Made by a program: the position numbers and the translations under genes | In this document: piece by piece, positions 6,060 through 60,150 of the stretch | How the letters are laid out: the number at the start of each line of letters is the position of its first letter | How positions within the stretch are numbered: position 1 is the first letter of the stretch | The notes under the pieces: model-generated | What the model was told of the DNA's origin: nothing | What the model saw: only the letters and a program-made list of their open reading frames with translations | The model's database searches: none | DNA from: Defluviimonas salinarum | GTDB lineage: Bacteria > Pseudomonadota > Alphaproteobacteria > Rhodobacterales > Rhodobacteraceae | Direction of reading: 5' to 3' | NCBI RefSeq assembly: GCF_026013545.1 | Contig: NZ_JAPDOG010000014.1 | Coordinates: forward strand, 62,001-126,000 | Length of the DNA stretch: 64,000 nucleotides

Positions 6060-6157
6060 TCTCTACTCCATTTTTCGCAATTCTATGCATGGAGCGGGAA
6101 AGCCGCAACGGGCCGGGCGCGATGCGCCCGGCCCGTCCACAGGTTCGGTCCCGAAGG

Positions 6158-8635
6158 TTAGCGCAGCCGGTAGCCGTTACCGGTGTCCGCAAGCCCGATC
6201 CGGATGCCGTCCCGGCAGGGCCCGGAGAACAGGGCGCCGGCCGCCAGGTCGCGGGCGACGCCGGCGATCTCGCGGCGGATCGCCTCGGGCTGGCCGAGCC
6301 GCGCGGCGTGCTCGATCGCCGCCTGGTCGAAGACCAGCGAGACACCCATCTCGCGGAAGCTCGCGGCCAGCGCCTCGATCTCGCGCAGCACGACCTTGAC
6401 CGCGCCGTCCCGGCCTGGCTTGCCGAGGCCGATCACGCAGCCGATCGCCGCAAGGAGATCCTTGCGGAACGCCTTCTCGAGCATCTCGCGCATCCGCGCC
6501 TCGAGATCGCCGTCGCGGCCGAATCCGATCCGAGACTGTGCCAACTCCTGGCCGGTCGAGAAGGTCACGAAGACCCAGGCGCCGCGCAACGACAGGAGCC
6601 GCCCGTCCGCGCCGCGGAAGGTCCCGGTGGCGATGGCCTGGCTCAGGAGTTCCTGCACCGAGGGATCGGAGCGGTCGAGATCCTCGAGGAAGAGCACCAT
6701 GTCGCGATGCGCGTCCGCCGCCTCGACGAGGCTGCCGCCACGTTCGCTGCCCGGGCCGCCCTGCAGGCCGACGAGGTGCGAGAGCGCGCCGCGGTCGCCG
6801 AGTTGCGTCATGTCGATCCGGACGAGCGGAAGCCGCATCGCCTCGGCGAAGGCGGAGACGATGCGGGCCTTGCCCGCGCCATGCGGCCCGGCCAGCAGGA
6901 TCGAGGCGCGGGTGCCGGACGAGGCGAGGTTGAGCGCCGCGGCCCGCGTCTCTGCGGCGAGTCTGCCGAGCGCCTCGTGATGGTCGCCGATCATGGACCT
7001 CAGCGCCGCCTCGAGTCCGGCGAGACGCGCCATTTCCTGCGGATCCGGCATCTTCGGGCGCCGGAGGCCGAGGCGGTCGGCCGCGGCATGGACATGCGGA
7101 ACCGTGAGGGTCATGCCGCCGACCCGGTGTCCGGCGCGTTCCTCGACCGCCACCACGCAGGCGGTGTCGAGCAGGTCGAAGGCCTTGTCCGGGAACCGCC
7201 GGTCGGGCTGGTAGAGATCGGTGACCCGGCAGATCTCGCCGATCACCTCCGGCGCGGCCGAGAGACCGTGGTGGTCGAGATAGGTCCAGCCGGCGCCGTT
7301 GAGGATCGCCGCGGTCTCGGCACGGTCCGGTTCGCGGATCCTGAGCGTATCGAAGCGCCGCATCAGGGCGGCGTCCTGGCGGATCTGGCGCATCTCCGCG
7401 GAGGTCGTCGCCCCGATCACGGTGATGTCGCCGCGCGCCAGCGCCGGCTTGAACATGTTGGCCCCGTCCATGCCGCGGCCATAGGTCGACCCGGAGCCGA
7501 CAAGCATGTGGATCTCGTCGATGAAGAGGATCGCTCTTTCCGCCCGCATCCGCTCCAGGAGGTGCTTCATCCGTGCCTCGAAGTCGCCGCGGAACTTGGT
7601 CCCGGCCACGAGATCGGGCATCGAAAGCTCGTAGAAGGGCCGGTCGGCGAGCTGACGCTCGATGAGCGCGTCGCGCAGCCGCAGCGCGACACCTTCGGCG
7701 ATCGCGGTCTTTCCGACACCGGCATCACCGTAAAGGATGATGCTGCTCTTGCGGCGCCGGCGCAGTACCGAGATGACCGTGTCGATCTCGGCGTCGCGGC
7801 CGAGCACAGGATCGATCTCGCCGCGCGCGGCCATGCCGCCAAGGTCGCGCAGCGTCGCCGCGACGGCCTCCTCGATCTCGGCGTCGGATTTGCTCTGCTT
7901 GGCGGTCTTCTGCTCGCGGCCGACCGTCTGGCGCCCCGCATCACCGCCCTGCTGCTCGGCCCGCGCGGCGGTGTGCCTGGCGATCATGTCCGAAAGCTTG
8001 CCGCTGCCTTCGGGCGGGCCGAAGATGTCGGGATCGCTGAAGCTGTCTGGCGGCGGCAGGAAGGCTTCGTCCGGATCTTCCGCCGCGGCTGTCCGGCCCG
8101 GGGTCTCGATACCGTAGAACTCATCCTCTCCGAAGGTGATATCCTCGATGAACGAGGTATCCTCCACCCCCATGAGCAGCGAGGCCGCGCCGCATTCCGC
8201 GATCGCGGTCTCGGCCAGCATGCTGCCGTCGACCGCCTCGATGGCGCTGACGAAGAGATCCGCCAAGGCGTCGCTCGCCCCGCAGTCCGGATGGCTGCTG
8301 CGGAACTCCCGCATGCGCCCGATGACCTTCATGACCCCCTCGCAGAGGTCGGGCGGGGCCGGGTGGGCGGAAGAGAACTCGGCATGCTCGCGAAAGGCGC
8401 GGGCAAGGGCGCCGCGGCAGGCGTCAGGATCGCCGCCGCCGGATCGGATCATGGACCGGAAGCCGGGCTCGGCCAAAAGCTCATGGATCAGGTGCTCGAC
8501 CCCCATGACGCGGAAGCGGAAGCGCGCGGCCAGCTGGTGGGCGCGTGCGAAAAAGCGTATATGCTCCGGATATTCGGCCAGGTCTGGAAACCGAGGATCG
8601 AGCCCGTCGAAGGCGCAGGACGACGACATGTCCAT
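6158..8635 (-). CDS. ClpA-like AAA+ unfoldase with degenerate second ATPase domain
   Basis: Start MDMSSSCAF at 8635 follows GGGAGA; 825 residues. It has a Clp-N-like region (about 20-140), a low-complexity linker, then NBD1 with GDAGVGKT (about 301-308), ILFIDEIHM and IGATTSAEMRQ, all intact. NBD2 (about 575-770) is recognisable but altered: Walker A reads GPHGAGKA, Walker B LFLEDLDRSDP (ED instead of DE), the sensor-1 Asn is replaced (TFSTG), and the usual R-finger segment reads FRKDLLAAIG. Normal ClpA hydrolyses ATP in both rings and feeds ClpP. Here only NBD1 should be active. No clpP or clpS lies nearby. Confidence 0.85.
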   Translation of the reverse strand: MDMSSSCAFDGLDPRFPDLAEYPEHIRFFARAHQLAARFRFRVMGVEHLIHELLAEPGFRSMIRSGGGDPDACRGALARAFREHAEFSSAHPAPPDLCEGVMKVIGRMREFRSSHPDCGASDALADLFVSAIEAVDGSMLAETAIAECGAASLLMGVEDTSFIEDITFGEDEFYGIETPGRTAAAEDPDEAFLPPPDSFSDPDIFGPPEGSGKLSDMIARHTAARAEQQGGDAGRQTVGREQKTAKQSKSDAEIEEAVAATLRDLGGMAARGEIDPVLGRDAEIDTVISVLRRRRKSSIILYGDAGVGKTAIAEGVALRLRDALIERQLADRPFYELSMPDLVAGTKFRGDFEARMKHLLERMRAERAILFIDEIHMLVGSGSTYGRGMDGANMFKPALARGDITVIGATTSAEMRQIRQDAALMRRFDTLRIREPDRAETAAILNGAGWTYLDHHGLSAAPEVIGEICRVTDLYQPDRRFPDKAFDLLDTACVVAVEERAGHRVGGMTLTVPHVHAAADRLGLRRPKMPDPQEMARLAGLEAALRSMIGDHHEALGRLAAETRAAALNLASSGTRASILLAGPHGAGKARIVSAFAEAMRLPLVRIDMTQLGDRGALSHLVGLQGGPGSERGGSLVEAADAHRDMVLFLEDLDRSDPSVQELLSQAIATGTFRGADGRLLSLRGAWVFVTFSTGQELAQSRIGFGRDGDLEARMREMLEKAFRKDLLAAIGCVIGLGKPGRDGAVKVVLREIEALAASFREMGVSLVFDQAAIEHAARLGQPEAIRREIAGVARDLAAGALFSGPCRDGIRIGLADTGNGYRLR

Positions 8636-8769
8636 GACTTCTCCCTTCCTGTCGCATTTCCATATGCATAGCCCAGGCAAGGGAGAAATAGAAGATCGAT
8701 TTTCCGGAATATTCACTCTATGCGGCGAGAATGTGGCACCGCCATCCCCCGGTGGCGCCGGCGATTACC

Positions 8770-9222
8770 TCAACGCCGGTAGGCGGGCGCATCCCGGGCC
8801 GGATCGAGCGCGTCGGCATAGCCCGCGGCGGCCGCCACGACCTCCGGTCCCGCGCCGAGCGCGTCCAGCGCCCGCAGGAGTTCCGGCATCCGGTCCGTCT
8901 CGAACGCGTCCGGATCGATATCGTCGGGCGCTGCAAGCCAGGCCGCCTCCGGATCGCCGCGATGGACCAGGGCATCCGCGATCGCCATCTCGGGCCGCAG
9001 CATGCGCCGGCCATCCGCTTCGATGCTCCAGTCGCGCAACACCGCGAAGTGCCGGTCGTCGCGGCGCAGGATCCTCACCTGTCCCAGTCCGGCGGTCTCC
9101 GCGATCTCCCCCTCCGGCAGGATGATCTCCGTCAACCGGTGGATCTGCGTCGTCCAGCCCTGAAGCCAGAGCGCGGATCCTCCCGCGAGGAGCCCGTCTT
9201 CGGTCAGGCTCAAAGGCCGCAT
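8770..9222 (-). CDS. AbiEi-like antitoxin candidate (C-terminal domain only)
   Basis: The 150-residue product overlaps the 3' end of the AbiEii-like toxin gene by 13 nt. The segment GGSALWLQGWTTQIHRLTEI resembles the start of AbiEi C-terminal domains (SALxLHGLTDQ type), and RPEMAIADAL resembles their conserved PERAIxDxL motif. The N-terminal winged helix normally found in AbiEi autorepressors is absent. In known type IV systems the antitoxin gene precedes the toxin; here it follows. The identification rests on motif resemblance plus partner gene. Autoregulation is doubtful without the winged helix. Confidence 0.55.
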   Translation of the reverse strand: MRPLSLTEDGLLAGGSALWLQGWTTQIHRLTEIILPEGEIAETAGLGQVRILRRDDRHFAVLRDWSIEADGRRMLRPEMAIADALVHRGDPEAAWLAAPDDIDPDAFETDRMPELLRALDALGAGPEVVAAAAGYADALDPARDAPAYRR

Positions 9223-10951: not shown

Positions 10952-11539
10952 TCAGGCCGAGGGTTCGTCGCTCTCGGCCTGGGCCGCGAGCCACTCCTCG
11001 TGATTGGCCTCCATCTCGGCATGGAAGGGCGGCAGGTAGCCGAGGTCCCAGCTCACGGCCTCCATCTCGCGGATGAAGGTGGCGATGTCGCGCGGATCGG
11101 TCGGTACCTCCTCGGTGAGCCCGATGTCGTCGATGAGGTGAACCGGGTGATCCTTGTCCGGATCCCATCTCGGCCTGGTGGCGGCCATCCCGGCGCGCAG
11201 ATCCGCATAGCGCTGACGCTCTGCCGTATCGATGCGGTTCACCACCGGGGCCGCCTCATCCGAGGCGAGAATGGCGTCGATGACCTCGATCTCCCGGACG
11301 TAGAAGCTCTTCTGGAGGTCTGGAAGGCCGACCTGGCCCGGAATGAACTCGAGGCGATCGTCGGCATCCCCTCCGATCGCCGCCATGGCGATCCGGTCAT
11401 GACCCTCAAGTGTGATCGCGCCCGCAAAGACGACGCGCCGGCGGACCTTGTAGTTGTCGCCGTCGCAGTAGAGGTACTCGATCCCCGTATTGTGCGGATC
11501 GTGAGGATCCATCGTCTTTCCGGAAACTTCGTTCGCCAT
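10952..11539 (-). CDS. hypothetical protein (195 aa)
   Basis: Begins MANEVSGKTMDPHDPH; a second ATG at 11512 has GGAAAG in front and is an alternative start. The middle is strand-rich (YKVRRRVVFAGAITLEGHDRI), and the C-terminal third contains an acidic, helical segment with FHAEMEANHEEWLA. No family was recognised. A TGCGAAAA octamer lies 46 nt upstream of the start (11585-11592), one of the recurring motifs of this window. Confidence 0.7.
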   Translation of the reverse strand: MANEVSGKTMDPHDPHNTGIEYLYCDGDNYKVRRRVVFAGAITLEGHDRIAMAAIGGDADDRLEFIPGQVGLPDLQKSFYVREIEVIDAILASDEAAPVVNRIDTAERQRYADLRAGMAATRPRWDPDKDHPVHLIDDIGLTEEVPTDPRDIATFIREMEAVSWDLGYLPPFHAEMEANHEEWLAAQAESDEPSA

Positions 11540-11584: not shown

Positions 11585-11592
11585 TGCGAAAA
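11585..11592. promoter_or_regulatory. TTTTCGCA/TGCGAAAA motif, representative site
   Basis: TGCGAAAA on the plus strand, between the divergent genes 10952-11539 (-) and 11726-11857 (+). It is one of about 19 exact copies found in gene-start regions across the window; see the finding on this motif for all positions. Confidence 0.5.
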
Positions 11593-14612: not shown

Positions 14613-15412
14613 CAGGGTTCCATTCCGTCGTCATCTTCGGGCTCGCCGTCCTCCGCGAGGGTGGGGAAATCCGCCACGAGGCGGTCCCAGACAGCATCCA
14701 TTGCGACCCCGAAGGCCTCCTCGGGATCGAATTTCTGCGATTCCGCGTAGATCGCGGACTGGATGCCGGCATCCGGCACATCCTCCAGCCCGGGCTCGGT
14801 CTGGCCAAAGGTGTCGCGGACATCCGCCACCGAGATGCTCAGGAAACCGACATAGGCGCCCGTCGCCTGTTCGAGGACGATCTGGGCGTGCTGGATGACA
14901 TGCGGGTTCGGGATTTCGGCGACCTTGGCCGCGACCGCCCGCGCATGTGCGATCCGGTGCTCGTCATGCGGCGCCGAAAGCAGCGCCTCGCAGTCCGCAA
15001 GCGGCAGCTCCCAGGAGCCGAAGACCTCGGGGCGTCCGGGGCCTTCGGTCCGCCAGTCACTGACCTTGAAGCCGTTGTTGGTGATCGCATCATCCGTGTT
15101 GATGGCCATCAGGACACCCTCGCCATCCGGCAGGATCGCGATCTCGCTGTCATCGGCATGACCGCGCGCGCGCCCGGATTCGATCCTGCGCATCAGCTCC
15201 GCGGCGCGGGCCTCGGCGACGAGGTCGAAGACATGGAAGCGCGGAACGCCGAGCTCGCCCAGGTCATCGAGGAGCTCGTCGAAGTTGTCCGCAGTGATCA
15301 GTTCGGCCATCTCGCCCTCCTGGACCGACATGGCCAGGTTGGCCGGCCCCTCCCCGTCCAGGTCCGAGCGGCGAAGGAAAAGCGGAATCAGGATATGCTT
15401 TTCAGATGACAT
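14612..15412 (-). CDS. hypothetical protein, first gene of DUF1281 operon (266 aa)
   Basis: Start at 15412 with GAGAGG six bases upstream and TGCGAAAA a further ten bases away (minus strand; 15432-15439). The N-terminus is strand-like (HILIPLFLRRSDLDGEGPA), the rest acidic and helical, ending EDGEPEDDDGMEP. No catalytic pattern. Four coupled genes (this one, DUF1281-like, the repeat protein, the C-H-D protein) form one transcription unit reading to 12966. Confidence 0.75.
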   Translation of the reverse strand: MSSEKHILIPLFLRRSDLDGEGPANLAMSVQEGEMAELITADNFDELLDDLGELGVPRFHVFDLVAEARAAELMRRIESGRARGHADDSEIAILPDGEGVLMAINTDDAITNNGFKVSDWRTEGPGRPEVFGSWELPLADCEALLSAPHDEHRIAHARAVAAKVAEIPNPHVIQHAQIVLEQATGAYVGFLSISVADVRDTFGQTEPGLEDVPDAGIQSAIYAESQKFDPEEAFGVAMDAVWDRLVADFPTLAEDGEPEDDDGMEP

Positions 15413-15476
15413 AACGGACCTCTCATGGCGATTTTCGCAAGAGTAGGGCCTGGCACCGAAAATCCAAACGGGGGAG

Positions 15477-15514: not shown

Positions 15515-16120
15515 CTACTTGACCGCCGAGCGGAGCCAGCCATCGACGAAGGGCCCGTTATGGGTCTCTAGCGTGACGGTCATGTCGTGCATGAGATTTC
15601 CGCTCAGCTCGGGCGTTACGCGCGCGTGGCCCTCGTAAGAGCGCAGACCCTGGAAGAGCTCCACGATCTGGGCGAAGGGCGCCTCCTCGGTCTCCTGTCC
15701 CCAGAGGAACCGGCAGCCGACCGCGCGCAGATCGCCATTCGCGATCTCGAAGACGCCCTCCTCGCCATCCGCCAGGATGAGCCGGTCGAACTCGTCGGCC
15801 GCGACGCGGCCGATCGCCATCAGCGAGACGGCGCCGGCCAGCCCGCTCGTATCGGAGGGGAATTCGACGACATCGAGCCAGAGGTCGCGGTCCCGAAGCT
15901 CGCTGCGGAACTTCATGCCGTTCGCCATCGGCGAGGCGTTCATGAAGGCGTCGAGGCCGGCTGCGGGCACCGCAAAGGCGGTCAGGTCGCCATCCGCCGG
16001 AACATGGCCCGCGACGCCCGAGCAGTCCGCATCCGCCAGGACGGAGGACGCGAGCGGAACGGACATGACCGCAGCGGCGGCCAGGATGGCGGACAGGCGG
16101 ACGAAGACGGGATACGGCAT
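15515..16120 (-). CDS. secreted/periplasmic hypothetical protein
   Basis: Start MPYPVFVRL at 16120 after AAAGGAG. An N-terminal signal peptide is clear: hydrophobic core LSAILAAAAVMSVPLASSVLA, with likely cleavage after ALA-type residues near 27-29. The mature part, about 170 residues, has one Cys pair (C near the N-terminus of the mature chain, and one in AVGCRFLW) and a strand-rich, acidic composition. It is monocistronic: own TGCGAAAA motif 27 nt upstream (16147-16154) and own terminator. Function unknown. Confidence 0.75.
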   Translation of the reverse strand: MPYPVFVRLSAILAAAAVMSVPLASSVLADADCSGVAGHVPADGDLTAFAVPAAGLDAFMNASPMANGMKFRSELRDRDLWLDVVEFPSDTSGLAGAVSLMAIGRVAADEFDRLILADGEEGVFEIANGDLRAVGCRFLWGQETEEAPFAQIVELFQGLRSYEGHARVTPELSGNLMHDMTVTLETHNGPFVDGWLRSAVK

Positions 16121-16199
16121 GCGAAAACTCCTTTTGATGACAAACTTTTTCGCAACGCATTTCGGTGACGTCAAGCGAAAAATCGCGGCGGAGGCCGGA

Positions 16200-16846: not shown

Positions 16847-16930
16847 GATGTCCTCCGTGGATGGGCTGTTGATGTTCCAGTTCGAAATCTAGGGCAGATC
16901 GAAGAAAATTGAGAAACACTTTTCGCATAT

Positions 16931-24283: not shown

Positions 24284-24480
24284 GACGTGATCCTTCGTTG
24301 GACTGTTCAATTGTTCTACTCGTCATTTTTTCGCACTCCGACATGAAAACGACAAGCAAGACCCGACGAGATGAAAGCGGTCCGGATCCGATTTTGCGAA
24401 TAATTAATACATCACGATACGATCATGAGCCGGCGCCCGATCCGCAGGGGGCGGGCGGCCCAGGGTTGGCGATCCTCTGA
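24284..24480. promoter_or_regulatory. upstream control region of the SNO-PcfJ operon
   Basis: An AT-rich stretch of about 200 bases without a gene. It contains TTTTCGCA (24328-24335), a TTTTGCGAATAATTAATAC stretch (24392-24410) and A/T-rich runs suitable for a promoter reading leftward. No -35/-10 pair can be fixed by eye. Confidence 0.5.
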
Positions 24481-25926: not shown

Positions 25927-26047
25927 GTGTTTTCCTTTTCACATCAGTAGATGTCCTGACCGGAAAATCATTCCCCGGTCGACGCACCCATATTTCGGGC
26001 GCTGTCCAGAAAATCGCAATGCGAAAAATAGTACTTCGTTATATTTT

Positions 26048-28441
26048 TCACGCCGTTGCCTTCCTCCGCGCCCCACCCTTCGCCATCATGGAATCGATGA
26101 AGGCCGAACACTGCCGGCCATCCGTCTCCGCGGCCACCGGCAGCCTGGCACCGTTTTCCTCGGCAAGCTTGCGCGCGAAGGCGAGCTGCTTCTCGGACGG
26201 CGGGCGTGGACCGGATGAGGGTTTCACGCCGTCGATCCAGGCCGAGAGAGCGCGGCCCGAGGCGCGCGCCTCGGCGGGGATCTCCTTCCCGGTCTCCCGG
26301 GCGATGCGCTCGGCGAAGGCGATCTGCTTTTCGGAAGGCGGACAGGTGCCGCCCTGCCCCTGCGGCGCGTTCGGGTCGCGCTTCGGCAGATGCTCCTCGA
26401 GGAAGGACCGGCAGACCGAGGCGTCCGTGAGGCATTTCGGCGGCAGCTTGATCCCCTTGCGCTCGCAGATCGTCTTCGCGGCCGCGGCCATCTTCTCGGT
26501 CGGCTTCGGGCTCTTGCCGATCGCGATCGACACCGCGCCGGCATTGGCCTTGATCCGGTCGATCTCCTTCTGGGTCTCGCCAAGGATCTTCAGGACCGCC
26601 TGCTCGGCCGAGAGCTTGCCCTTCTCGACCATGTCGAAGATCGTCTCCCACATCGCGGTCCGGGCCGGGTCGACGACGTTCGGACAGACCGCGACAAGCG
26701 TCTGGTAGAGCTTCATGCCGCCTTCCGAGGGCATCAGCGACTTGCCCTTCATGACGATCTGGCCCTGGGTGAGGAGGCCCTTGACGACATCGCCGCGCGT
26801 CGCCGGCGTGCCGATGCCCTTGGCCTCCTTGAGCCGCGTCCGCATCGCCGGATCCTCGACCAGGCGCCAGGCCTCCTGCATGACCTTGATGAGCGAGCCT
26901 TCGGTGTAACGGGCGGGCGGCTTGGTGGTCACGGTCCGGAGCGCGGCCGAGACCACCTTGCCGGTCTCGCCGTTCTTCACCTCGGGAAGGTCCGGCTCCT
27001 CGTCGGCATCCTTCAGTCCGAGCCCCCCGAGGATCGCCTTCCAGCCCGGCACCAGGGGCACCCGGCCCGAGGCGCGGAAATCCCAGTCATGCCCCTTCCA
27101 GGGGAAGGTCATGTCGATCGTGGTCTGGCGGTATTCGTAGTCCGGGGCGAGCGCCGCGAGATACTGGCGCGCGATCATGTCGAAGAGCTTCGCCTCGTCA
27201 TCGGAGAGCGAGGGGACCGCGCGGGCGAATTCGGACGCCGTGTTGACGTTCGGGATGATCGCGTAGTGCGACATGCCCTCGAGCGCCTTGTCGGAGAAAT
27301 GCCCGGACTTGCCGCGCCGGGCCTCGGGCTTGGCGAGAAGGCCGGCATGCTGGCCATAGCCGCCGAGCCGGAGAAGGGCGGGCACGAGCGTCGGGATGTC
27401 GGCGATGTTGTTCTCCGGCAGATACTTGGCCTCGCCGCGGGGATAGGTGATCAGCGTGCGCTCCGAATAGAGCTTCTGGGCGACCGAGAGCGTCTTCTCG
27501 CCGCCCCAGCCGAAGCGCGCGGAGGCGGCCGACTGCAGCGCGGTGAGATCGAAGAGCTTCGGCGGGCCCTGACGCTTCTTCTCGGCCTTAGAGCGCAAGA
27601 GGCCCGAATATCCCTCGACCGCGGAGCGGAGCCCATCGGCGATCTCGCGCTTCAGGATCCGGCCGACCATGGATTCGGCCTCCTGGAGCGCTGCCTCGTC
27701 GGCCATGAGTTCCTCGGCCTCCTCCTCGGCCGTCTGTTCCTCCTTCACCAGCGATTTCGGCAGCCGCCCGCAGGTCAGTGTCAACTGGCCAGCCGCGACG
27801 CGCGTCAGCGCGTCGATCTCGTACATGTCCTGGGGCTTGAAGGTCTCGATCTCCAGTTCGCGCTTGCAGACAATGCCGAGAACCGGGGTCTTGACGCGTC
27901 CGATGCCGATCGCGCCCTTTGTGCCGGGCTGTTTCAGCGTCACCGTCGCGGTGCGGGTCAGCGACAGGTTCGAGGTCTGGTCGGCCTGCTCGCGGGCCTG
28001 GCCCGACATGTAGAGGCCGCGAAACTCGGAATTCGGCCTGAGCTTCGCGAAGGCGTCCTGCAGCGACTTCGGATCCTCGGCATTGAAGATGCAGCGCTGG
28101 ACCTGGCCGCGGAAGCCGATGAACTCGACGATCTCGTCGCCGATCAGCTGGCCCTCGCGGTCGCAGTCCGTGGCGATGATGATCCGCTCGGCGCCGCGGG
28201 CGGCTGCGCGGATCGCATCGAGATACTTCTTCGTGTTCGTGACCGGCTTCTTTTCGTAGAACTTCCCCGGCCAGAGAAGTTCGGCCGACCATTCCTTCCA
28301 GTCCTCGCGGACATCGTCGGGCTCCTTGAGGGTGAGGATGTGACCCACGGCGGGCAGCACCTCGCCGTAGCGCGACCCGATCGCCGCGCGGATCGCCTTC
28401 GCCTGGGATGGCTTTTCGCAGATGACGAGAGATGAACCCAT
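26048..28441 (-). CDS. topB: DNA topoisomerase III (type IA) with unusual C-terminus
   Basis: Start at 28441 after GGAGGAACC; 797 residues. Toprim motif ATDCDREGQLIGDE (90-103), GIGRVKTPVLG (179-189; most relatives read GRVQTPTL), and active-site Tyr at 333 in LITYPRGEAKYL, where TD normally follows PR. Instead of zinc fingers, residues ~646-797 hold three units of the pattern P-S/T-E-K-x3-A, IxxxxGxxLP, C/SxxF/WI (PTEKM, PPSEKQIAFAERIA, PPSEKQLAFARKLA). Type IA enzymes relax negatively supercoiled DNA and decatenate intermediates; plasmid copies assist replication or transfer. The promoter octamer lies 50 nt upstream within the preceding gene. Confidence 0.93.
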   Translation of the reverse strand: MGSSLVICEKPSQAKAIRAAIGSRYGEVLPAVGHILTLKEPDDVREDWKEWSAELLWPGKFYEKKPVTNTKKYLDAIRAAARGAERIIIATDCDREGQLIGDEIVEFIGFRGQVQRCIFNAEDPKSLQDAFAKLRPNSEFRGLYMSGQAREQADQTSNLSLTRTATVTLKQPGTKGAIGIGRVKTPVLGIVCKRELEIETFKPQDMYEIDALTRVAAGQLTLTCGRLPKSLVKEEQTAEEEAEELMADEAALQEAESMVGRILKREIADGLRSAVEGYSGLLRSKAEKKRQGPPKLFDLTALQSAASARFGWGGEKTLSVAQKLYSERTLITYPRGEAKYLPENNIADIPTLVPALLRLGGYGQHAGLLAKPEARRGKSGHFSDKALEGMSHYAIIPNVNTASEFARAVPSLSDDEAKLFDMIARQYLAALAPDYEYRQTTIDMTFPWKGHDWDFRASGRVPLVPGWKAILGGLGLKDADEEPDLPEVKNGETGKVVSAALRTVTTKPPARYTEGSLIKVMQEAWRLVEDPAMRTRLKEAKGIGTPATRGDVVKGLLTQGQIVMKGKSLMPSEGGMKLYQTLVAVCPNVVDPARTAMWETIFDMVEKGKLSAEQAVLKILGETQKEIDRIKANAGAVSIAIGKSPKPTEKMAAAAKTICERKGIKLPPKCLTDASVCRSFLEEHLPKRDPNAPQGQGGTCPPSEKQIAFAERIARETGKEIPAEARASGRALSAWIDGVKPSSGPRPPSEKQLAFARKLAEENGARLPVAAETDGRQCSAFIDSMMAKGGARRKATA

Positions 28442-28467: not shown

Positions 28468-29694
28468 TCAGAAGGAGGGTTCCATTTCTGTTTTCGCATT
28501 TTTATACGAGGAAACCGGCCGGGTGCAATCGTCGATGAACCCGGCATCGAAACCGGCGGATATCTCCGCTGTGGACTCCGCGTCCTGGCCGCGGATCGCC
28601 TGGGCGTAGCGCAGATCCATGAGCCCCTCGATCAGCGCGTCCCGCATGTCGGTTCCAAGGAGGAGATGCAGGGTGGCGGCGCGGCGGAAGGCGAGGCCTG
28701 GGCTCATCGCGCCATCGGGATGGATCGAACCGAGCAGGTTCTGCCGGCGGCCGGGAAGGCTGCCTCCGAACTCGTCGAGAAAGGCCGCCTCGGCGGCCCA
28801 GGCCATGCGCAGATGCGCGAGAAGATCGCGCCCGGTCCGGACCGTCGCGCCGCAGGCGGCGAGCCGCTCCGCCCGCTCAGGCCATATCTCGCGGATCGTT
28901 GCGGCAACGGCGTCGCGAAAGGCCCGGACGAGATCGAGATCGGAGATGCCGGGCGCCGGGAACCGCCCCGCCAGTTCCGGCAGCCGGCTCGCGCCGGCGC
29001 CGGGTGGCTGCGCGACGGGCCCGGCTCCGGCCCGCTCGAGGACGGTTTTCGGCGAGGCCAGGAGCTCGGCCTCGAGATCGACGAGATGCTCCAAGCCGCG
29101 CTCGGAGAGATCGCCGACACCGATCGCGAAGGCGCCGGGCGAAAGCGGGGTCCCGGAGAGCCAGGAACCGAGGCTGCGCTCGTCGCCCTCCGGCCCCGGC
29201 CCGGGAACGAGGAGACCGAGGTAGTCCGACGGGAGGTCGGCCATGACGACCGCGTCATCGCGCGGGTAGAGCGTGAGGTCGGGCGCGGCCGCCGCGGGGG
29301 GCGCGGCGCGGGTGGTTTCCGGCGCGGATCGCGCCTCCGTATTTGCGCTTTTCGCGCTTCCCGGTGCGATCATCGGATCTGCCGGGGTCGCGGCGGGTGC
29401 CGCGTTCCTGGACGAGGCCATAACCGCATCGGTCAGGAGGCCGGTGATGAAGTCCCTCTTGTCGCGGTAGTCGGGAAGCATGTCGAGGCGCAAGCGGCAG
29501 CCGGTCAGCAGGTTGCGCAGTGCCGCGTCATCGGTGCCGGGCGCATCCTTCAATCCGAATTTCGCAGCCGCGGCCGCGTGCAGCCTGGCGCGAACCGCGG
29601 TATCCGTGATCGCAGCGATCATGTCTTCGAAGCGCATCGCATTGAAGGACGCGGCGACCCGCTCGGCCACGTCTTCGCGGGTTTCCGCGCTCAT
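28468..29694 (-). CDS. hypothetical protein (408 aa)
   Basis: Its ATG overlaps the upstream stop by four bases (ATGA at 29691-29694). The N-terminal ~100 residues are helical (AERVAASFNAMRFEDMIAAI). An Ala/Pro-rich linker follows, then a C-terminal domain with WPERAERLAACGATVRTGRD and a helix-rich end. The final codons contain TGCGAAAA on the minus strand, apparently the topB promoter element embedded in coding sequence (28491-28498). No recognised domain; it lies between the SNF2 gene and topB. Confidence 0.72.
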   Translation of the reverse strand: MSAETREDVAERVAASFNAMRFEDMIAAITDTAVRARLHAAAAAKFGLKDAPGTDDAALRNLLTGCRLRLDMLPDYRDKRDFITGLLTDAVMASSRNAAPAATPADPMIAPGSAKSANTEARSAPETTRAAPPAAAAPDLTLYPRDDAVVMADLPSDYLGLLVPGPGPEGDERSLGSWLSGTPLSPGAFAIGVGDLSERGLEHLVDLEAELLASPKTVLERAGAGPVAQPPGAGASRLPELAGRFPAPGISDLDLVRAFRDAVAATIREIWPERAERLAACGATVRTGRDLLAHLRMAWAAEAAFLDEFGGSLPGRRQNLLGSIHPDGAMSPGLAFRRAATLHLLLGTDMRDALIEGLMDLRYAQAIRGQDAESTAEISAGFDAGFIDDCTRPVSSYKNAKTEMEPSF

Positions 29695-34881: not shown

Positions 34882-34926
34882 TGCGAAAAAAATTGCGTTG
34901 TCTCGCCTTGCTCATGTTTGCGAAAA
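34882..34926 (+). promoter_or_regulatory. paired TGCGAAAA sites upstream of the HicA-like fusion
   Basis: Two exact TGCGAAAA octamers at 34882-34889 and 34919-34926, 37 bp apart, in a strongly A/T-rich spacer 50-90 nt ahead of the ATG at 34970. Confidence 0.5.
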
Positions 34927-39292: not shown

Positions 39293-39488
39293 ATGGGTTC
39301 CTTCATGAAGTTGCGCCGATCGGGCCATGGTCCGGGACAAACCGACTATGTGATTGATTTTCGCATTTTAGCCGCCGAACCGCCAGACACAAGACTCGAA
39401 GCGGAAAAACTGCCGCATCGGCTGTTCGACCTTCGTATTTTCGCGCGGCTCGCGGATGTTGCGTTGAACGAAAGCGAGGAGCTCTTCC

Positions 39489-41015: not shown

Positions 41016-41023
41016 TTTTCGCA
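41016..41023 (+). promoter_or_regulatory. TTTTCGCA motif ahead of the phosphoesterase operon
   Basis: ATTTTCGCA followed after nine bases by TATGCT, 49 nt upstream of ATG 41072. If TATGCT is a -10, the octamer would occupy the -35 position; this is only a suggestion. Confidence 0.45.
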
Positions 41024-41071: not shown

Positions 41072-41920
41072 ATGACGAGAGCGGCAGGCGGACGGAAACC
41101 GGTCCACAAGATCACCCTGGTCGAAAAGCCGGGCCGGCACCTGATGGAGCGCACGCCGCGCTACGACGTGATGCTGAACGGCGCGCGCTGGGGCGAGCTC
41201 TACTTCAACATGACCGGCTATGTCGGCCACCTGCCGACCGTCCAGGGCGGCAGGATGGATATCGGCGAGCGGCCGATCTCGGCTTTCCGGAAAGAGGCCG
41301 CGACCCTCAACCGCGAGGCTGAGCGCACGATCGAGGTCGCCGACGCCGACAGCCGGCGCATCGCGATCACCCGACCCTCCTGCGACAACCGCATGATCTT
41401 CGCGATCAGCATGATCGACGGCGAGCATCCCCGGGCGCATCTCCTGAACCGCCGGGAATACGATCATGCGATGGCGCTCTTCGGCGGCGCCGATGTGGGC
41501 CTCGGCTTCTTCCAGGAACATCCCTTCCCGGATGGCGAGACCACCGCCCTCGTCGAGCCCGGCGACGGCTGGATTCTCGAGGAGTTCCCGGACCTGCCGA
41601 TCCGGAAGATGTCGGATTTCGAGGCGGGCCTCCATCGCCGCCGCATCGACCGGGTCTTCGATACCGTCGACGACGAGATCAAGCTCGTCGTCGCGACGCT
41701 GCCCGGCGGATCGGACGCGCTCCCTGGCTACGTGACGCGCCAGAGCCTCGATTTCGGCCGCCATGTCTTCGGAGACGGGCTGCGGGCGGGCGACCTCGCC
41801 TATGCCGGCGTCGCCGCGCTCGCGGATCCGGAGGACCGCGCCGCGCTCGCGGCGGCGTTTCCGGATCTCGACCTGCCCGAACCTGATCTTTCAGACGAAC
41901 AATCTGGCCTGGAGCCCTGA
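41072..41920 (+). CDS. hypothetical protein (282 aa), heads metallophosphoesterase operon
   Basis: MTRAAGGRKPVHKITLVEKP at 41072, GAGGCGGACG in front. The N-terminal part looks like a beta-rich binding domain (YDVMLNGARWGELYFNMTGYVGH). The C-terminal part is acidic (FPDLDLPEPDLSDEQSGLEP). Two bases separate it from the phosphoesterase gene. No family recognised; a partner or regulator of the phosphoesterase is a context-based guess. Confidence 0.72.
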   Translation: MTRAAGGRKPVHKITLVEKPGRHLMERTPRYDVMLNGARWGELYFNMTGYVGHLPTVQGGRMDIGERPISAFRKEAATLNREAERTIEVADADSRRIAITRPSCDNRMIFAISMIDGEHPRAHLLNRREYDHAMALFGGADVGLGFFQEHPFPDGETTALVEPGDGWILEEFPDLPIRKMSDFEAGLHRRRIDRVFDTVDDEIKLVVATLPGGSDALPGYVTRQSLDFGRHVFGDGLRAGDLAYAGVAALADPEDRAALAAAFPDLDLPEPDLSDEQSGLEP

Positions 41921-41922
41921 TC

Positions 41923-42834
41923 ATGACGCGTTTCCTTCACTGGTCCGACCTTCATCGCGAGATGTCGGAGGCGGCCTTCCCGACGCCCTCGGCCGACTGC
42001 CCGGCCGGATCCGTCGATGCGGTCCTGATCGCTGGCGATCTCAACGCCCGCGGCGCCCATCTCGACGACGCCATGCGCATCCAGGAGGCCTGGGAGGCGC
42101 CCGTGATCATGATCTGGGGCAACCATGAGACCTACCGGTCGGTCTACCAGGACCAGCGCGCGGCCGAGCTCGACCGTCTCGAGGCCCTCCGAGGCCAAGG
42201 GTACGACATCCGCGTCCTGCACCAGGGCGAGACCTTCATCGGCGACACGAGGATCCTTGGCGCGACGCTCTGGACCGACTTCGACATTCTCGGCCAGCAG
42301 GAAAAGATGATGTTTGGCGCCGAGTATATCATGAGGGACTACAGCCGCGTCGAGTGGCGCGAGCAGGATGGCGGGCTTCGCAACCTGCGCGCGTCCGACA
42401 CCGTCGCCATGCATGCGAGCGACCGGGCCTGGCTCCTCGGCGCCCTGGCCACCCCCCATGTTGGCCGGACCCTCGTCATGACCCACCACCTGCCGGCTCC
42501 GGAACTGCTCGCGCACGAGGCCAAGAAGGGCGGTTACGCACCTGGCTATGTCTCGGACATGCGCCGTGACTTCCTCGGCCTCAAGATCGACGCCTGGGTT
42601 ACCGGCCACACGCACTGGGCGCGCCGCGGCACGCTGCAGGGCGCCTTCGGTCCGATCGCCTTCACCGCCAACATGATGGGTTATGAGGGCCAGGGCACGA
42701 ATTTCGAGCCCTACCGGATCCTCGACATGGACCAGCCGGCACTCGGCCTCGAGCCGATCTGCATCGACGACCCCGTTCTTCGTCGGAATTGCGAGGACTT
42801 GCCTTCCGCCGACATGACCAACCCTCAGTTTTGA
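41923..42834 (+). CDS. calcineurin-like metallophosphoesterase
   Basis: A 303-residue protein with the complete metal-binding set: D-x-H in FLHWSDLHRE (D9, H11), GD in VLIAGDLNARG, GNHE in IMIWGNHETY, an H in LVMTHHLPAP and the final GHTH in AWVTGHTHWA. The family hydrolyses phosphomonoesters or diesters, including cyclic nucleotides and nucleic-acid ends. There is no signal peptide, so it is cytosolic. Its C-terminal end (PSADMTNPQF) is 14 nt before the next gene. Substrate cannot be predicted. Confidence 0.92.
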   Translation: MTRFLHWSDLHREMSEAAFPTPSADCPAGSVDAVLIAGDLNARGAHLDDAMRIQEAWEAPVIMIWGNHETYRSVYQDQRAAELDRLEALRGQGYDIRVLHQGETFIGDTRILGATLWTDFDILGQQEKMMFGAEYIMRDYSRVEWREQDGGLRNLRASDTVAMHASDRAWLLGALATPHVGRTLVMTHHLPAPELLAHEAKKGGYAPGYVSDMRRDFLGLKIDAWVTGHTHWARRGTLQGAFGPIAFTANMMGYEGQGTNFEPYRILDMDQPALGLEPICIDDPVLRRNCEDLPSADMTNPQF

Positions 42835-42848
42835 AGTGAGAACCTGAC

Positions 42849-43319
42849 ATGAAGATTCCTGAATACTCGAAAGGCCAGGAGCCGGTTCTGAAAGCCACGA
42901 TCCGGGTGACCGTGCTCGCCCAGGAAACCGATCCGGTCGCCTTCGGCGACGCGCTGTCTTCGATGAGCCTCGAGGATATCGGCCGGGAAATCGACGTGGG
43001 CCTCTGGATCGGCGAAAGCCAGGTCATCGCCCTTCAGGCGCTCCCCGAGGACCGCGTCGTCCCGGAGCTCGTGGCGATGCACAACGATGGCGAATTCTTC
43101 AACTGCGACGAGGATGCGCGCTTCGAGGCGCCGGACCGCAAGCCCGAGCCGGAGGGCCAGATCCTCAGGGCGCAGGTCGCCCAGGGCTGGTCCTCGGAGA
43201 CCATGGCCATGCTGCAGTCCCGCTTCCTCGATGAGGTCGGCCTGAAGCAGGAATTCGCGGACTGGCTCGATGACCGGGCCGCCGAGGAAAACGACGCAGC
43301 ACCCGGACCGGGCGCCTGA
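42849..43319 (+). CDS. hypothetical protein (156 aa)
   Basis: ATG at 42849, 14 nt after the phosphoesterase stop. The first ~75 residues read like a small alpha/beta domain (LKATIRVTVLAQETDPVAFG, IALQALPEDRVVPELVAMHN). The remainder is acidic, with EEND near the end. Third gene of the phosphoesterase operon; no motif recognised. Confidence 0.7.
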   Translation: MKIPEYSKGQEPVLKATIRVTVLAQETDPVAFGDALSSMSLEDIGREIDVGLWIGESQVIALQALPEDRVVPELVAMHNDGEFFNCDEDARFEAPDRKPEPEGQILRAQVAQGWSSETMAMLQSRFLDEVGLKQEFADWLDDRAAEENDAAPGPGA

Positions 43320-43349
43320 CCCTCCCGCCGGGAAACGGAAAAGGACTGG

Positions 43350-43742
43350 ATGATGACCGAGCAACCCGACACCGGCACCGGCGGGACGCAAGCGCCCTGC
43401 AAGGACGGAGGCGTCCCGATCAGCCTCGGCGAGATCGAAACCCTCCACTACTACGACTGCCCGCGCATTTTCGTGTTCGAGCACGACGGCGCCCCGCGCC
43501 TGGCCAACAGCAGCGACGAGACCGACGTCGAGGCGATCTACCAGGTCTCGTCGCCCGCGCCCGATCTCCTGGACCGCCTGCGCGCCAACGAGGCGGATCT
43601 GCGCGACGCCATGGCGGCGGGGCCCTTCTTCACCCTCAGCTGGGGCGCCGAGGTGCGCATCGCGCCCGCCGGTGAGCCCGACTGGCTCCCCGAGCCCGGC
43701 GTGAAGCTGAGATGCGAGCACGATGTCGGGGTCGAGCCCTGA
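43350..43742 (+). CDS. hypothetical acidic protein (130 aa)
   Basis: Double ATG at 43350 with AAAAGGACTGG upstream. The middle segment (PRIFVFEHDGAPRLANSSDE ... ADLRDAMAAGPFFTLSWGAE) suggests a compact alpha/beta fold. No catalytic pattern. 30 nt after the preceding gene and 69 nt before the next. Confidence 0.68.
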   Translation: MMTEQPDTGTGGTQAPCKDGGVPISLGEIETLHYYDCPRIFVFEHDGAPRLANSSDETDVEAIYQVSSPAPDLLDRLRANEADLRDAMAAGPFFTLSWGAEVRIAPAGEPDWLPEPGVKLRCEHDVGVEP

Positions 43743-44729: not shown

Positions 44730-44856
44730 AGACGTGGTCCGCCCATCCACAGTCTTCCGCACGCATTTGCGAATAACGGATTGTTGGATTGGCCCGGGCC
44801 GGTTATCTTGCTGCCAGGCCGGGATCCGGCCGGCAGACCCCGGAGGAAGCCCGAGA

Positions 44857-45509: not shown

Positions 45510-46385
45510 TCAGGGTGCGGGCGCCTCGGCCAGCGCGGGCGCGGGAAGCGCGAGGGTGGCGATCCGTTCCGACAGCGCCAGCGCGAAGGCGGCCGGATCG
45601 TCATGGGCCACTGAGACCCCGCGCGGATAGTCGGCGTCCATCCGCTGCCGTTCAGCCTCCGCCGCGCTAAAGAAGAGATTGACCGCCCCGAGGGTCACGC
45701 CCTCCTCGCGCGTCACCTCGTCGACGATCTTGCGAAGATGCCGGCGCAGGCAGTCCGGCGCGTTCGCTTGCAGGGTCGAGTCATCGAGCGGGTACCCATC
45801 GGACACGACGAGGATCGCGCGCCTGGCATGGGGCTGCTGCAGGATCCGCTCGAGCGCCCATTCGAGCGCCTCGCCGTCGATATTCTCCTTTGGAAGATTG
45901 AATTCGGCGAGGATCATCGGCGCGTCGCGGTTCTCCGCCCAGGGCTCGTCCGCCCCCTTCAGGACGATATGGAGAAGGTCGTTCAGGCGCCCCGGCTCTT
46001 TCGGCCGGCCGGCCATGATCCAGTCCTCGCGCGAGCGTCCACCCTTCCAGTTCCGGGTTGTGAAGCCGAGGATCTCGAAGTCGATCCCGGCCGCGTCGAG
46101 CCGGTCGCCGACCTGGCGCAGGCTTTCGATGATGCCGGACCTGATGCCCTGCCCGTGCATCGAGCCGGACATGTCGACAAGGAGCGTGAGGAAGGTGTCG
46201 GCCCCCGACGCGTCCGCGAGCCGGGCGTCGAGCCCGTCGAAGGCGCGATCGAAATTCTCCGGCAGGCAGGTCTTGCCGATCGTCTCGACGGCCTCCTTCA
46301 TCTCGTGCCGCCTTTCGGGCGTCAACAGGTGCGTCCAGTGACAGGTGAGGTCATGTCTGGTAGTGAAGCGGCGGTAGTCGGACAT
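45510..46385 (-). CDS. CobT-like von Willebrand factor A (VWA) protein
   Basis: Start MSDYRRFTTRHDLTCHW at 46385 after GGGAAGAA; 291 residues. MIDAS site D71-x-S73-x-S75 in LLVDMSGSMHG, then the CobT-specific run EILGFTTRNWKGG, GRLNDLLHIVLKGAD, KENIDGEALEWALERI and LVVSDGYPLDDSTL. These match the C-terminal domain of cobaltochelatase subunit CobT; the long acidic N-terminal part of true CobT is missing. Short CobT-like genes occur in large phages and plasmids, and CobT normally works with the AAA+ CobS. No CobS-like gene is in view. Confidence 0.85.
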   Translation of the reverse strand: MSDYRRFTTRHDLTCHWTHLLTPERRHEMKEAVETIGKTCLPENFDRAFDGLDARLADASGADTFLTLLVDMSGSMHGQGIRSGIIESLRQVGDRLDAAGIDFEILGFTTRNWKGGRSREDWIMAGRPKEPGRLNDLLHIVLKGADEPWAENRDAPMILAEFNLPKENIDGEALEWALERILQQPHARRAILVVSDGYPLDDSTLQANAPDCLRRHLRKIVDEVTREEGVTLGAVNLFFSAAEAERQRMDADYPRGVSVAHDDPAAFALALSERIATLALPAPALAEAPAP

Positions 46386-46541
46386 CCGGATTCTTCCCGT
46401 TGAACGCATTATGGTCAGCATGGCGAATATGTGCGAAAATTGATACATGGGCAAAGGCAAATAATTTTCCCAACCCTGTTTGAAATCACTTTTTCGCATC
46501 TTCGAAATCCATTATCCTTGCCCGGAAACCGAGGACGCGCC
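46386..46541. promoter_or_regulatory. divergent promoter region with two octamers facing opposite genes
   Basis: Between the CobT-like (-) and thermonuclease (+) genes. TGCGAAAA at 46432-46439 (reads TTTTCGCA toward the CobT-like gene, 47 nt away) and TTTTCGCA at 46491-46498 (44 nt before the thermonuclease start). The two sites thus have the same orientation and nearly the same distance relative to their own genes. Confidence 0.6.
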
Positions 46542-48130: not shown

Positions 48131-48204
48131 GCCGCCCCGCATTGCGGGTTTCTGATTTTCGCATCTTTCCGGGATGATCGCGGGAGCCAGACAAGGATCC
48201 CGCC

Positions 48205-50275: not shown

Positions 50276-50322
50276 TGCGAAAATTATTGACGCCATTCGG
50301 ATGCTGATCTATGTTTTTCGCA
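50276..50322 (+). promoter_or_regulatory. inverted pair of TGCGAAAA / TTTTCGCA octamers
   Basis: TGCGAAAA 50276-50283 and TTTTCGCA 50315-50322 face each other 31 bp apart, just before the gene at 50342. This is the clearest inverted arrangement of the motif. Confidence 0.5.
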
Positions 50323-56902: not shown

Positions 56903-56910
56903 TTTTCGCA
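56903..56910 (+). promoter_or_regulatory. TTTTCGCA motif before gene 56932
   Basis: In a T-rich run (56895-56910) 22 nt upstream of ATG 56932. Confidence 0.45.
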
Positions 56911-56931
56911 TACCTCAAGGCGTAGACGCAC

Positions 56932-57225
56932 ATGCACTGGTTCCTGACCATCTTCGTGATCCTGGCAAAACCCGTGACGGATGGGGGTTCCGAAAAGCCG
57001 GGAGACCTCCTGAAATACCTGCCGATGGGCGCGACCCAAACGGAGGCCCAGTGCGAGGAGATCGCGGCAGATTTCACCGGAGCGCTGCGCGCGACCGGCC
57101 AGGATTCCGTGATCGTGCTGCACAACTGCACGCCGATCCCGGTCGCGACCTCCGATGCGATCGGAGATGCCCAGGGTTGGACGCCGCCGGACGAGGGCGG
57201 CTGGCCGGCGAAGGAAACCGACTGA
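56932..57225 (+). CDS. small possibly secreted protein (97 aa)
   Basis: MHWFLTIFVILAKPV: a short hydrophobic N-terminus that could be a signal or anchor, then a hydrophilic, acidic chain with two Cys (QCEEIAAD; LHNCTPIP) that might pair outside the cytoplasm. Ends 14 nt before the exonuclease start. No family recognised; the signal is short, so location is uncertain. Confidence 0.62.
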   Translation: MHWFLTIFVILAKPVTDGGSEKPGDLLKYLPMGATQTEAQCEEIAADFTGALRATGQDSVIVLHNCTPIPVATSDAIGDAQGWTPPDEGGWPAKETD

Positions 57226-57239
57226 TCCCGGAGATCCGC

Positions 57240-57742: not shown

Positions 57743-57779
57743 CCCGCAAGGCAATCCCGGCCCGCATGACTGATCGGGC

Positions 57780-58555: not shown

Positions 58556-58978
58556 ATGACTGGCAAGGGAATAGTCGAGTCTGCTGCCTTCGTGATCGCC
58601 GCCCTTGGCGGGGGGGTCCTGGTGTTTGCAGTATCGCACTTCATCAATCTCCATCTGTATTCGGTGAAAATCAAGCCAACCGAATTTGATCTCGTTTTCG
58701 GTTCAACCTTGGTGCTGATTTCCATAGCAGCTGTTGCGTTCGTTCTGAGGCGCCGCAGCAGCGCCACGAAAGCGATGGCCCGAACTGCATGGTTTTTCGC
58801 AGTCTCCGCATCCGCAGTGCTTGCCTGGTGGCTGCTCGGCGTATGGGCAAATACCCGCGTGAAACAATACGACGGTGAGAACTTCCTGCAAGATACATGG
58901 GGCATCGCACTTGCGCTCCTGTTTTGGCTGGCACTCGCCACCTCTGTCATAAGGTCGAGGCGCGAAAAGGGTCCGTGA
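58556..58978 (+). CDS. hypothetical membrane protein (140 aa), likely foreign
   Basis: GAGGAATC precedes ATG 58556. Four hydrophobic segments: about 9-29, 47-64, 78-96 and 113-130, with short charged loops. No family recognised. Codon choice is clearly more AT-rich than the surrounding Arg/Ala-rich genes, and the gene sits between a gene-less gap and a TnpB remnant, with its own strong terminator. This suggests recent acquisition together with the IS material. A TTTTCGCA octamer occurs inside the gene (58794), one of only two coding copies seen. Confidence 0.72.
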   Translation: MTGKGIVESAAFVIAALGGGVLVFAVSHFINLHLYSVKIKPTEFDLVFGSTLVLISIAAVAFVLRRRSSATKAMARTAWFFAVSASAVLAWWLLGVWANTRVKQYDGENFLQDTWGIALALLFWLALATSVIRSRREKGP

Positions 58979-59026
58979 TGCTACCCGGAACACACTCCTG
59001 AGAAGCGCAGCAGGATCGACGTCCAT

Positions 59027-59082: not shown

Positions 59083-59095
59083 ACATACCTTCCTT

Positions 59096-59375: not shown

Positions 59376-59487
59376 TCAAGCAGCGCGTGATATTTCAATG
59401 CCGCCGTGAATGAATGCCTATGGCAAACCCCTTATAACGCAGGGCCTTTCAGTCGCCGGGCGGAGCCTGAATGAAAACTGAATAAAA

Positions 59488-60051
59488 TCAGAACGCCGGC
59501 TCCATGCCGGCGCCGGCGGGTTCGCGATGCCGCGCCAGGGTCTCCGCGAGGATCGCGCCGAGGCGCGCCACCGCCCGCCGCCCGCCCTCGGAGCGCGGAT
59601 CGGCGACAGCCGTGGCCTCGCCGACCGGATCCGCGTCCCAGCGCCGCGCCACGAGCGTCGCGAGCGCGGCCGCGAGAAGGGTCGCATACCCCCTGCCCCG
59701 TTCGCGCGCGTCGGTGAAGACCGCATCGACGAAGATCTCCATCTCCCGCTCCTGGCGCCCGAAGACGTTGATCTCGACGGTCATCATCGTGTGAAGCCGG
59801 CCGGGATCGCCGGCCGGTCCGATGCCGATCGTGATGTTGCGCTCATCCGCCTCATCGAGCGCAAGGGCGGCGGGCGAGATCGGATCTCCCTTCGCGACCC
59901 GCATCCGGCCGGGCGCGGCGATCGAGAGCGCGTCGAGGCGGGGATCGAGGATGCGGATCGCGAGATGCGGGGGCAGGGTCACGCCGGTCGCGGCGAGCAT
60001 GTCCTCCGCCGTGACCGGCAAAAGGTCGTCATGAACCGAGGGTGTCATCAT
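59488..60051 (-). CDS. hypothetical protein, possible GNAT-like fold
   Basis: Double ATG at 60051/60048 with GGAGCC; 187 residues. IFVDAVFTDARERGRGYATL then LAAALATLVA resembles the acetyl-CoA-binding R-x2-G-x-G/A turn of GNAT acetyltransferases, but the remaining motifs are not obvious. TGCGAAAA lies 43 nt upstream on this strand (60094-60101). Treat as a weak suggestion. Confidence 0.55.
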   Translation of the reverse strand: MMTPSVHDDLLPVTAEDMLAATGVTLPPHLAIRILDPRLDALSIAAPGRMRVAKGDPISPAALALDEADERNITIGIGPAGDPGRLHTMMTVEINVFGRQEREMEIFVDAVFTDARERGRGYATLLAAALATLVARRWDADPVGEATAVADPRSEGGRRAVARLGAILAETLARHREPAGAGMEPAF

Positions 60052-60150
60052 GGCTCCAGCCCCGGTGCAGGAACGATTGGAGTGCCAGTCCTCTTTTCGC
60101 ATTGCCAGGTGCCGCGCGAACGGGTCGGCATGGCCGGGTATGCACCCGCA

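Follow-up and report, generated by a model that had tools for sequence, protein, structure and literature searches.

Copies of an octamer in the window

We analyzed a 64-kb stretch of Defluviimonas salinarum DNA, hereafter the window, which spans positions 62001-126000 of contig C6 (NZ_JAPDOG010000014.1) in a genome of 5.02 Mb and 88 contigs (G000). The octamer TTTTCGCA (reverse complement TGCGAAAA) occurs 23 times in this window; 20 of the copies lie in spacers and three (8546, 28413, and 28491) in coding sequence. As set out below, this octamer is probably the core of a binding site, TTWTTCGCA, for one regulator encoded by a megaplasmid-like element of about 0.5 Mb. The copies are listed here with the strand of the octamer and, in brackets, the strand of the gene, using gene positions from our own gene caller.

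6072..6079, + strand, 12 nt ahead of the start at 6059 (-)
8546..8553, - strand, within the coding sequence (CDS) 6158-8635 (-), 82 nt in
11585..11592, - strand, 72 nt ahead of the start at 11512 (-)
15432..15439, + strand, 19 nt ahead of the start at 15412 (-)
16120..16127, - strand, one-base overlap with the start codon at 16120 (-); new here
16147..16154, + strand, 26 nt ahead of the start at 16120 (-)
16920..16927, + strand, 73 nt ahead of the start at 16846 (-)
24328..24335, + strand, 44 nt ahead of the start at 24283 (-), a strawberry-notch-like gene
26020..26027, - strand, 93 nt ahead of the start at 25926 (-)
28413..28420, + strand, 21 nt into the 5' end of the topoisomerase-like CDS 26048-28441 (-); new here
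28491..28498, + strand, 49 nt ahead of the start at 28441 (-) and 23 nt from the 3' end of CDS 28468-29694 (-)
34882..34889, - strand, 80 nt ahead of the start at 34970 (+)
34919..34926, - strand, 43 nt ahead of the start at 34970 (+)
39358..39365, + strand, divergent spacer, 65 nt ahead of 39292 (-) and 123 nt ahead of 39489 (+)
41016..41023, + strand, 48 nt ahead of the start at 41072 (+), with TATGCT at the preferred -10 spacing (see below)
46432..46439, - strand, divergent spacer 46302-46541, with CATGCT at the preferred -10 spacing towards 46301 (-)
46491..46498, + strand, 43 nt ahead of the start at 46542 (+)
48156..48163, + strand, 41 nt ahead of the start at 48205 (+), with GATGAT at the preferred -10 spacing
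50276..50283, - strand, 58 nt ahead of the start at 50342 (+), followed by TTGACG-17-TATGTT
50315..50322, + strand, 19 nt ahead of the start at 50342 (+)
56903..56910, + strand, 21 nt ahead of the start at 56932 (+)
58794..58801, + strand, in a stretch without a called gene and with no start within 300 nt
60094..60101, + strand, 45 nt ahead of the start at 60048 (-)

A preliminary description of the window had listed 21 exact copies; all 21 coordinates are right, and the copies at 16120 and 28413, missing from that list, bring the total to 23. It had counted two copies as coding, which agrees with our gene calls for 8546 but not for 58794, which lies in a stretch without a called gene; of the other two coding copies, it had missed 28413 and placed 28491 among the gene-start copies. 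The distance to the nearest start codon runs from -1 to 102 nt for the 19 spacer copies other than 58794, close to the 13-95 nt given there. Near-variants had also been reported at six gene starts: single-mismatch octamers do lie in spacers no more than 160 nt from all six, but only those at 44768 and 49391 are TATTCGCA, the sole well-supported variant.

An element-specific word and its place at promoters

The copy number in the window is well above chance, as had been supposed: 100 dinucleotide-preserving shuffles of the window contain a mean of 1.21 octamers and a maximum of 5. Across the genome there are 271 octamers, compared with 60 copies of the reversed word, and 117 of them fall on two contigs, C3 (148 kb, 66 copies) and C6 (137 kb, 51 copies), the latter holding the window. 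With one 2-kb gap left out, C3 and C6 hold 116 octamers, whereas eight 20-kb stretches from other contigs (160 kb) hold none. We then considered an element set of about 515 kb, made up of C3, C6, C14, C20, C32, C38, C50, and perhaps C36 and C28 (20 kb read of each), which contains 189 octamers and 5 reversed-word copies. The contigs beyond C3 and C6 were assigned to the element after their octamer hits had been seen and were then checked by tetranucleotide distance, by which they are mostly C3-like, with two of four C14 stretches nearer to C1 than to C3; the main results hold also for C3 and C6 taken alone.

Thirty-three control stretches (660 kb, the 160 kb included) contain 9 octamers, 6 of them from 4 stretches chosen because a hit lay in them. 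Another 20 non-element stretches (288 kb), 7 of them likewise chosen for a hit, were kept out of the control and contain 16 octamers and 7 reversed-word copies. The element octamers lie wholly within spacers in 159 cases and not in 30. The density is therefore unequal in both comparisons on which the preliminary description had let its claim stand or fall, namely with the host chromosome (0 in 160 kb, 9 in 660 kb) and with coding sequence (159 versus 30). Chance or base composition as the cause is ruled out by the shuffles, the control stretches, and the 5 reversed-word copies on the element, and a genome-wide host motif is ruled out by the presence of 189 of the 271 copies on the element, about 10% of the genome. 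Outside it, 82 octamers compare with 55 reversed-word copies. The octamer is thus a real, element-specific word whose frequency in the rest of the genome is close to chance. C3, C6, and the other octamer-bearing contigs appear to form one replicon of about 0.5 Mb in a fragmented assembly; the membership of the element in this genome, whose reported contamination is 3.57%, rests on that assembly. No Rfam family matches the window at gathering scores.

To define the site, we counted the 24 single-mismatch variants on the element and in the control. TATTCGCA is clearly raised (24 spacer and 6 other copies; control 2 and 5) and TTTTCGCG weakly so (24 and 24; control 11 and 23), while the remaining 22 have 1 to 9 spacer copies apiece. 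Because TATTCGCA is the only clearly raised variant, the site is TTWTTCGCA, a DnaA-box-like 9-mer with the octamer as its core. Position 3 is A or T, with spacer copies of TTTTTCGCA (89), TTATTCGCA (11), TTCTTCGCA (3), and TTGTTCGCA (fewer than 3). The flanks of 157 spacer copies favor A/T at the fifth letter upstream (87%) and at the two letters after the word (78% and 77%), with T one letter upstream in 57%. They contain no inverted second half, and hence the site is not palindromic; GANTC is neither contained in the octamer nor built with its flanking letters.

The octamer is placed with respect to genes in a strongly uneven manner. Of the spacers 60 bp or longer, 43 of the 57 divergent and 73 of the 194 tandem ones contain it, compared with 1 of the 29 convergent ones, such that one nearly invariant word stands in three quarters of the divergent spacers of an element of about 0.5 Mb. 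Even among the 29 octamers wholly inside called genes, 14 lie no more than 120 nt from the start of their own gene or no more than 150 nt before another start. Orientation is free, as had been claimed: in tandem spacers, 40 octamers point in the direction of the gene and 52 in the opposite one.

When a copy was counted once for every gene start no more than 150 nt away, there were 78 facing and 90 reversed placements, with 26 sites counted both ways. In 12 of the 78 facing placements, TAnnnT begins at +17 relative to the octamer start, compared with a mean of 0.86 per offset over 120 offsets, and AnnnT at +17 is found at 15 of the 52 facing-only sites, 8 of the 26 counted both ways, and 4 of the 64 that are reversed only. 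In the reversed placements, TAnnnT 34-38 nt after the octamer start is found in 13 of 90, where the mean per offset predicts about 3.4. There are thus two preferred promoter placements: given a -10 at its usual place, the facing octamer lies at about -29 to -22 and the reversed octamer at about -48 to -41. An excess of TAnnnT at -5 (10 of 90 reversed placements) was not used, as it overlaps the site's own A/T flank.

A putative regulator and competing explanations

The explanation that we consider probable is that TTWTTCGCA is the putative binding site of one regulator encoded by the element, which makes the octamer most likely an operator. One element-encoded protein would recognize the asymmetric site as one unit at a large fraction of element promoters, and its binding would set the transcription of these promoters together. 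Of the two possibilities raised in the preliminary description, an operator for one master regulator fits a word that is element-specific, nearly exact, promoter-confined, and orientation-free, as far as sequence can tell; the other, a promoter element, is taken up below. As to the sign of regulation, activation is slightly favored over repression, which may also apply, because facing copies sit 5' of a -10 without a recognizable -35. In the 23 facing placements with A and T at +17, the match to TTGACA just upstream equals that of shuffles (725 of 2,000 reach it), with TTG in 1 and TTC in 9 of the 23 at the -35 place, while the reversed class with a -10 has a better -35 match than shuffles (31 of 2,000 reach it), in a test that used three hexamer positions for the facing and five for the reversed class and is weaker for the former.

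Our leading, though tentative, candidate for the reader is a stand-alone DnaA domain IV protein (C3:117466-118326, 286 aa; PF08299, Bac_DnaA_C, E 1.1e-15). Two features of the site put this protein first: apart from a G in place of A at position 7, the sequence is that of a DnaA box, and position 3, which DnaA reads in the minor groove, may be A or T. The protein has no other Pfam match and no ATPase domain, in which it differs from DnaA; the only other PF08299 match in the genome, on contig C8, is taken to be the host DnaA. One octamer lies 120 nt upstream of the gene and one 115 nt inside it. Aligned to Escherichia coli domain IV (1j1v, E 1.7e-6), the protein keeps RDHTT and presumably also Arg399, if the 1j1v chain begins at residue 374. 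The rest of the recognition helix differs, which is compatible with a shifted DnaA box but no proof of one. In E. coli, Arg399 contacts TTA of the box TTATnCACA in the minor groove, helix 434-451 contacts TnCACA, and about 300 DnaA boxes are dispersed over the genome, some of them regulatory (PMC5742627). The element's site is likewise an asymmetric 9-mer and shares TT.T.C.CA; relative to TTWTnCACA, it has G for A at position 7 and nearly always T at position 5, and it is concentrated on one replicon. A further prediction, that a DnaA domain IV freed from the replication initiator is the element's master transcription regulator, we regard as rather unlikely. If it were true, the protein would bind TTWTTCGCA as a monomer at considerably more than 100 promoters, and the element would have a private address code apart from the host DnaA regulon, with related megaplasmids using other private words.

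In addition to the imbalance of the -35 test, several points weigh against this interpretation. Most placements fit neither strict -10 geometry, since only 23 of 78 facing and 13 of 90 reversed ones fit one. The kept RDHTT means that the DnaA domain IV protein may read canonical CACA boxes instead, and such boxes are themselves raised on the element, with 29 copies (21 in spacers) compared with 7 (3) in controls. No relative with the same octamer was found: in the parts read of the three strongest carriers of similar DnaA domain IV genes, G146 has 0 octamers in 18 kb, G253 has 4 in 44.5 kb (0 reversed), and G103 has 8 in 440 kb (8 reversed). The proximity of TTWTCCACA to octamers (10 of 14 within 100 bp; 5 of 2,000 AT-matched draws) was set aside, as an unrelated AT-rich word behaves alike (6 of 10; 23 of 2,000).

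The same operator could be read by a repressor or silencer in a replicon-wide network of the KorA/KorB type, a possible though not probable reading that differs from regulation by an activator mainly in sign and overlaps with the single-regulator explanation. Many octamers overlap -10/-35 regions or start codons, as a repressor site would, while the facing class without a -35 is unexpected for a promoter that needs repression only. KorA and KorB sites, like KorB/ParB-type operators in general, are palindromic, whereas the octamer is not. Networks of this kind are known in IncP-1 plasmids: KorA, KorB, TrbA, and KorC of RK2 are encoded by the plasmid and have operators at several of its promoters (PMC4889941), and KorB has 12 sites according to the title of a work cited in PMC11790492. 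The putative octamer network resembles these global regulators in having plasmid-specific operators at many promoters, but it comprises 189 copies of an asymmetric 8-9-mer on about 0.5 Mb, and no protein of the KorA/KorB type has been linked to it. In the literature searched, regulators that act plasmid-wide have about a dozen sites, and the searches made for the octamer word or for such plasmids returned nothing on point. The observation itself is real and stronger than first described.

Alternatively, the reader might be a GcrA-like protein (C3:137740-138132) that would act as a sigma cofactor, touching sigma while bound to the octamer and activating from several positions in either orientation; we consider this somewhat unlikely. 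The protein matches PF07750 (E 2.6e-8) and the GcrA structure 7ye1 (E 3.8e-4), and three octamers lie in the 245 bp ahead of its gene, a fourth within the gene, and a fifth directly behind it, although these may belong to the adjoining primase-like gene or to an origin-like spacer. Its NCBIfam GcrA score is 27.5 against a cut-off of 280, the match being limited to the N-terminal part, and known GcrA works at the essentially palindromic GANTC methylation site rather than at an asymmetric octamer. In Caulobacter, GcrA as a sigma70 cofactor has promoter-proximal GANTC sites of minor orientation dependence and about 200 direct targets (PMC7987155); the octamer is likewise promoter-proximal and free in orientation.

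The other possibility of the preliminary description, a promoter element for an element-encoded factor, finds partial support; the octamer could be the recognition sequence of the element's RpoH-like sigma factor (C3:27927-28862), which we judge improbable. Such a factor is indeed present (Sigma70_r2 E 5.5e-16, Sigma70_r4 E 7.3e-16; best NCBIfam model sigma-32 at 232 bits, below the cut-off of 315), and gene-facing octamers prefer the 17-nt relation to TAnnnT. This -10 at +17 is enriched in gene-facing copies only, a minority, and a fixed orientation is not seen, since tandem octamers point with and against the gene about equally often. The distance of 17 from octamer start to -10 start is also short for an ordinary -35, for which 23 is usual. 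The sigma factor of the Bosea plasmid pBSY19_1 is 31% identical, and yet the 150 of 709 kb read of that plasmid contain no spacer octamer. Finally, a role of the site in replication, partition, or the processing of DNA, and not in transcription, as the near-exactness typical of Chi- or uptake-type words and several octamers in the origin-like spacer near C3:137 kb might indicate, is very improbable given octamers in 1 of 29 convergent versus 43 of 57 divergent spacers.

A ribbon-helix-helix-like protein (C3:124067-124513) with a weak, below-cut-off match (E 0.073) and two octamers upstream joins the GcrA-like and RpoH-like proteins as a candidate, and the sequence evidence does not choose among them. 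An IS607-like resolvase (C3:32194-32535) was dropped as a reader, since such enzymes act on their own ends. Octamers surround the start of its gene (family assigned by eye) at C3:32535, one of them beside the start codon, and include one inverted pair 27 nt apart. The protein of C14:39639-40229 is built from a helix-turn-helix unit of about 63 residues that occurs three times in tandem in similar form.

The element and its relatives

The element is most likely a megaplasmid with a putative Dot/Icm-like transfer apparatus. Its proteins match IcmO/TraM-recognition, DotA, DotI, DotH, and DotG proteins of pND6-2 or Bosea plasmids, and plasmid relatives of its ATPase include proteins annotated as type IV secretion protein IcmB. 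It also encodes a ParA/ParB-like pair (C38:14523-16747), a DNA primase-like protein, and a strawberry-notch-like protein (1726 aa) adjoining a PcfJ-like protein (weak Pfam match; match to pANAM02). An array of 36 tRNA genes, which covers all 20 amino acids, lies within 13 kb (positions 934-13964 of C6:20001-40000), an unusual autonomy for a plasmid. A scan of 24 element stretches added one further tRNA (stretch L011) and a tmRNA call (L059, on C38); the window contains no tRNA gene. The AT-rich spacer at C3 ~137,000-137,740, beside the primase-like gene, has many GTAACG-like words by eye and resembles a replication origin, with several octamers inside. If one protein reads the octamer, switching it would test how a very large mobile element separates its expression from that of the host.

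By gene content, the relatives of the element are the Bosea plasmids pANAM02 (692 kb) and pBSY19_1 (709 kb) and the Methylorubrum extorquens AM1 megaplasmid. PLSDB types the AM1 megaplasmid and pND6-2 as MPF_I and lists all four plasmids as non-mobilizable. In the 200 of 692 kb read of pANAM02, AAGGATTG has 25 spacer copies compared with 1.4 expected, and 6 coding copies; of its sites, 13 fall in the 27 divergent spacers and 11 in the 66 tandem ones, with none in the 15 convergent ones. In the part read of pBSY19_1, the same word has 12 copies compared with 0.9 expected, and none in 11 convergent spacers. The Bosea word is thus dispersed like the octamer in divergent and tandem but not convergent spacers, whereas it differs in sequence, is weaker, and is partly palindromic in its longer form TCAAGGATTGA. 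In the 200 of 1261 kb read of AM1, AAGGAATG has 19 copies compared with 1.0 expected, and 10 coding copies, to which the ribosome-binding sequence may contribute, and CCCCACGAA is confined to one spacer. The pND6-2 words (100 of 117 kb read) fall mostly in one origin-like spacer and were not counted as dispersed. None of the parts read of these four plasmids holds a spacer octamer. Because the Bosea megaplasmids carry a different dispersed word, private promoter words may recur as a habit of such megaplasmids, and these codes would be detectable by sequence alone. The Bosea regions NZ_AP022849 190001-390000 and NZ_CP016463 270001-420000 contain gyrase, ribonucleotide reductase, thymidylate synthase, RecJ, and RtcB genes.

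Searches of plasmids, phages, viral contigs, and genome contigs revealed no close relative. No other genome among 394 of the family comes near the TTTTTCGCAW count of G000 (92 versus 5 reversed). Among genomes with raised ratios, we traced G294, G155, and G086 (G153, G164, G220, and G317 were left out); their copies are scattered over many contigs, and the excess in G294 disappears with TTTTTCGCA (46 versus 46). Strawberry-notch-like homologues occur in 5 of the 394 family genomes, the element's own included (E <= 1e-60), and in 1 of 22 genomes of the genus and, at E <= 1e-100, 1 of 390 of the order, both being its own. The stretches read hold 9 octamers in 209 kb (G034, C83), 8 in 420 kb (G103, C2), 4 in 40 kb (G253, C87), and 0 in 18 kb (G146); the word tables of the first three show no comparable dispersed word, and the G146 stretch is too small for one. 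By eye, the G253 stretch looks chromosomal. Within the window, many proteins (e.g., that of 41072-43742) end in GLEP or similar, the codons of which, by eye, form a ribosome-binding site and an ATGA overlap for the gene that follows.

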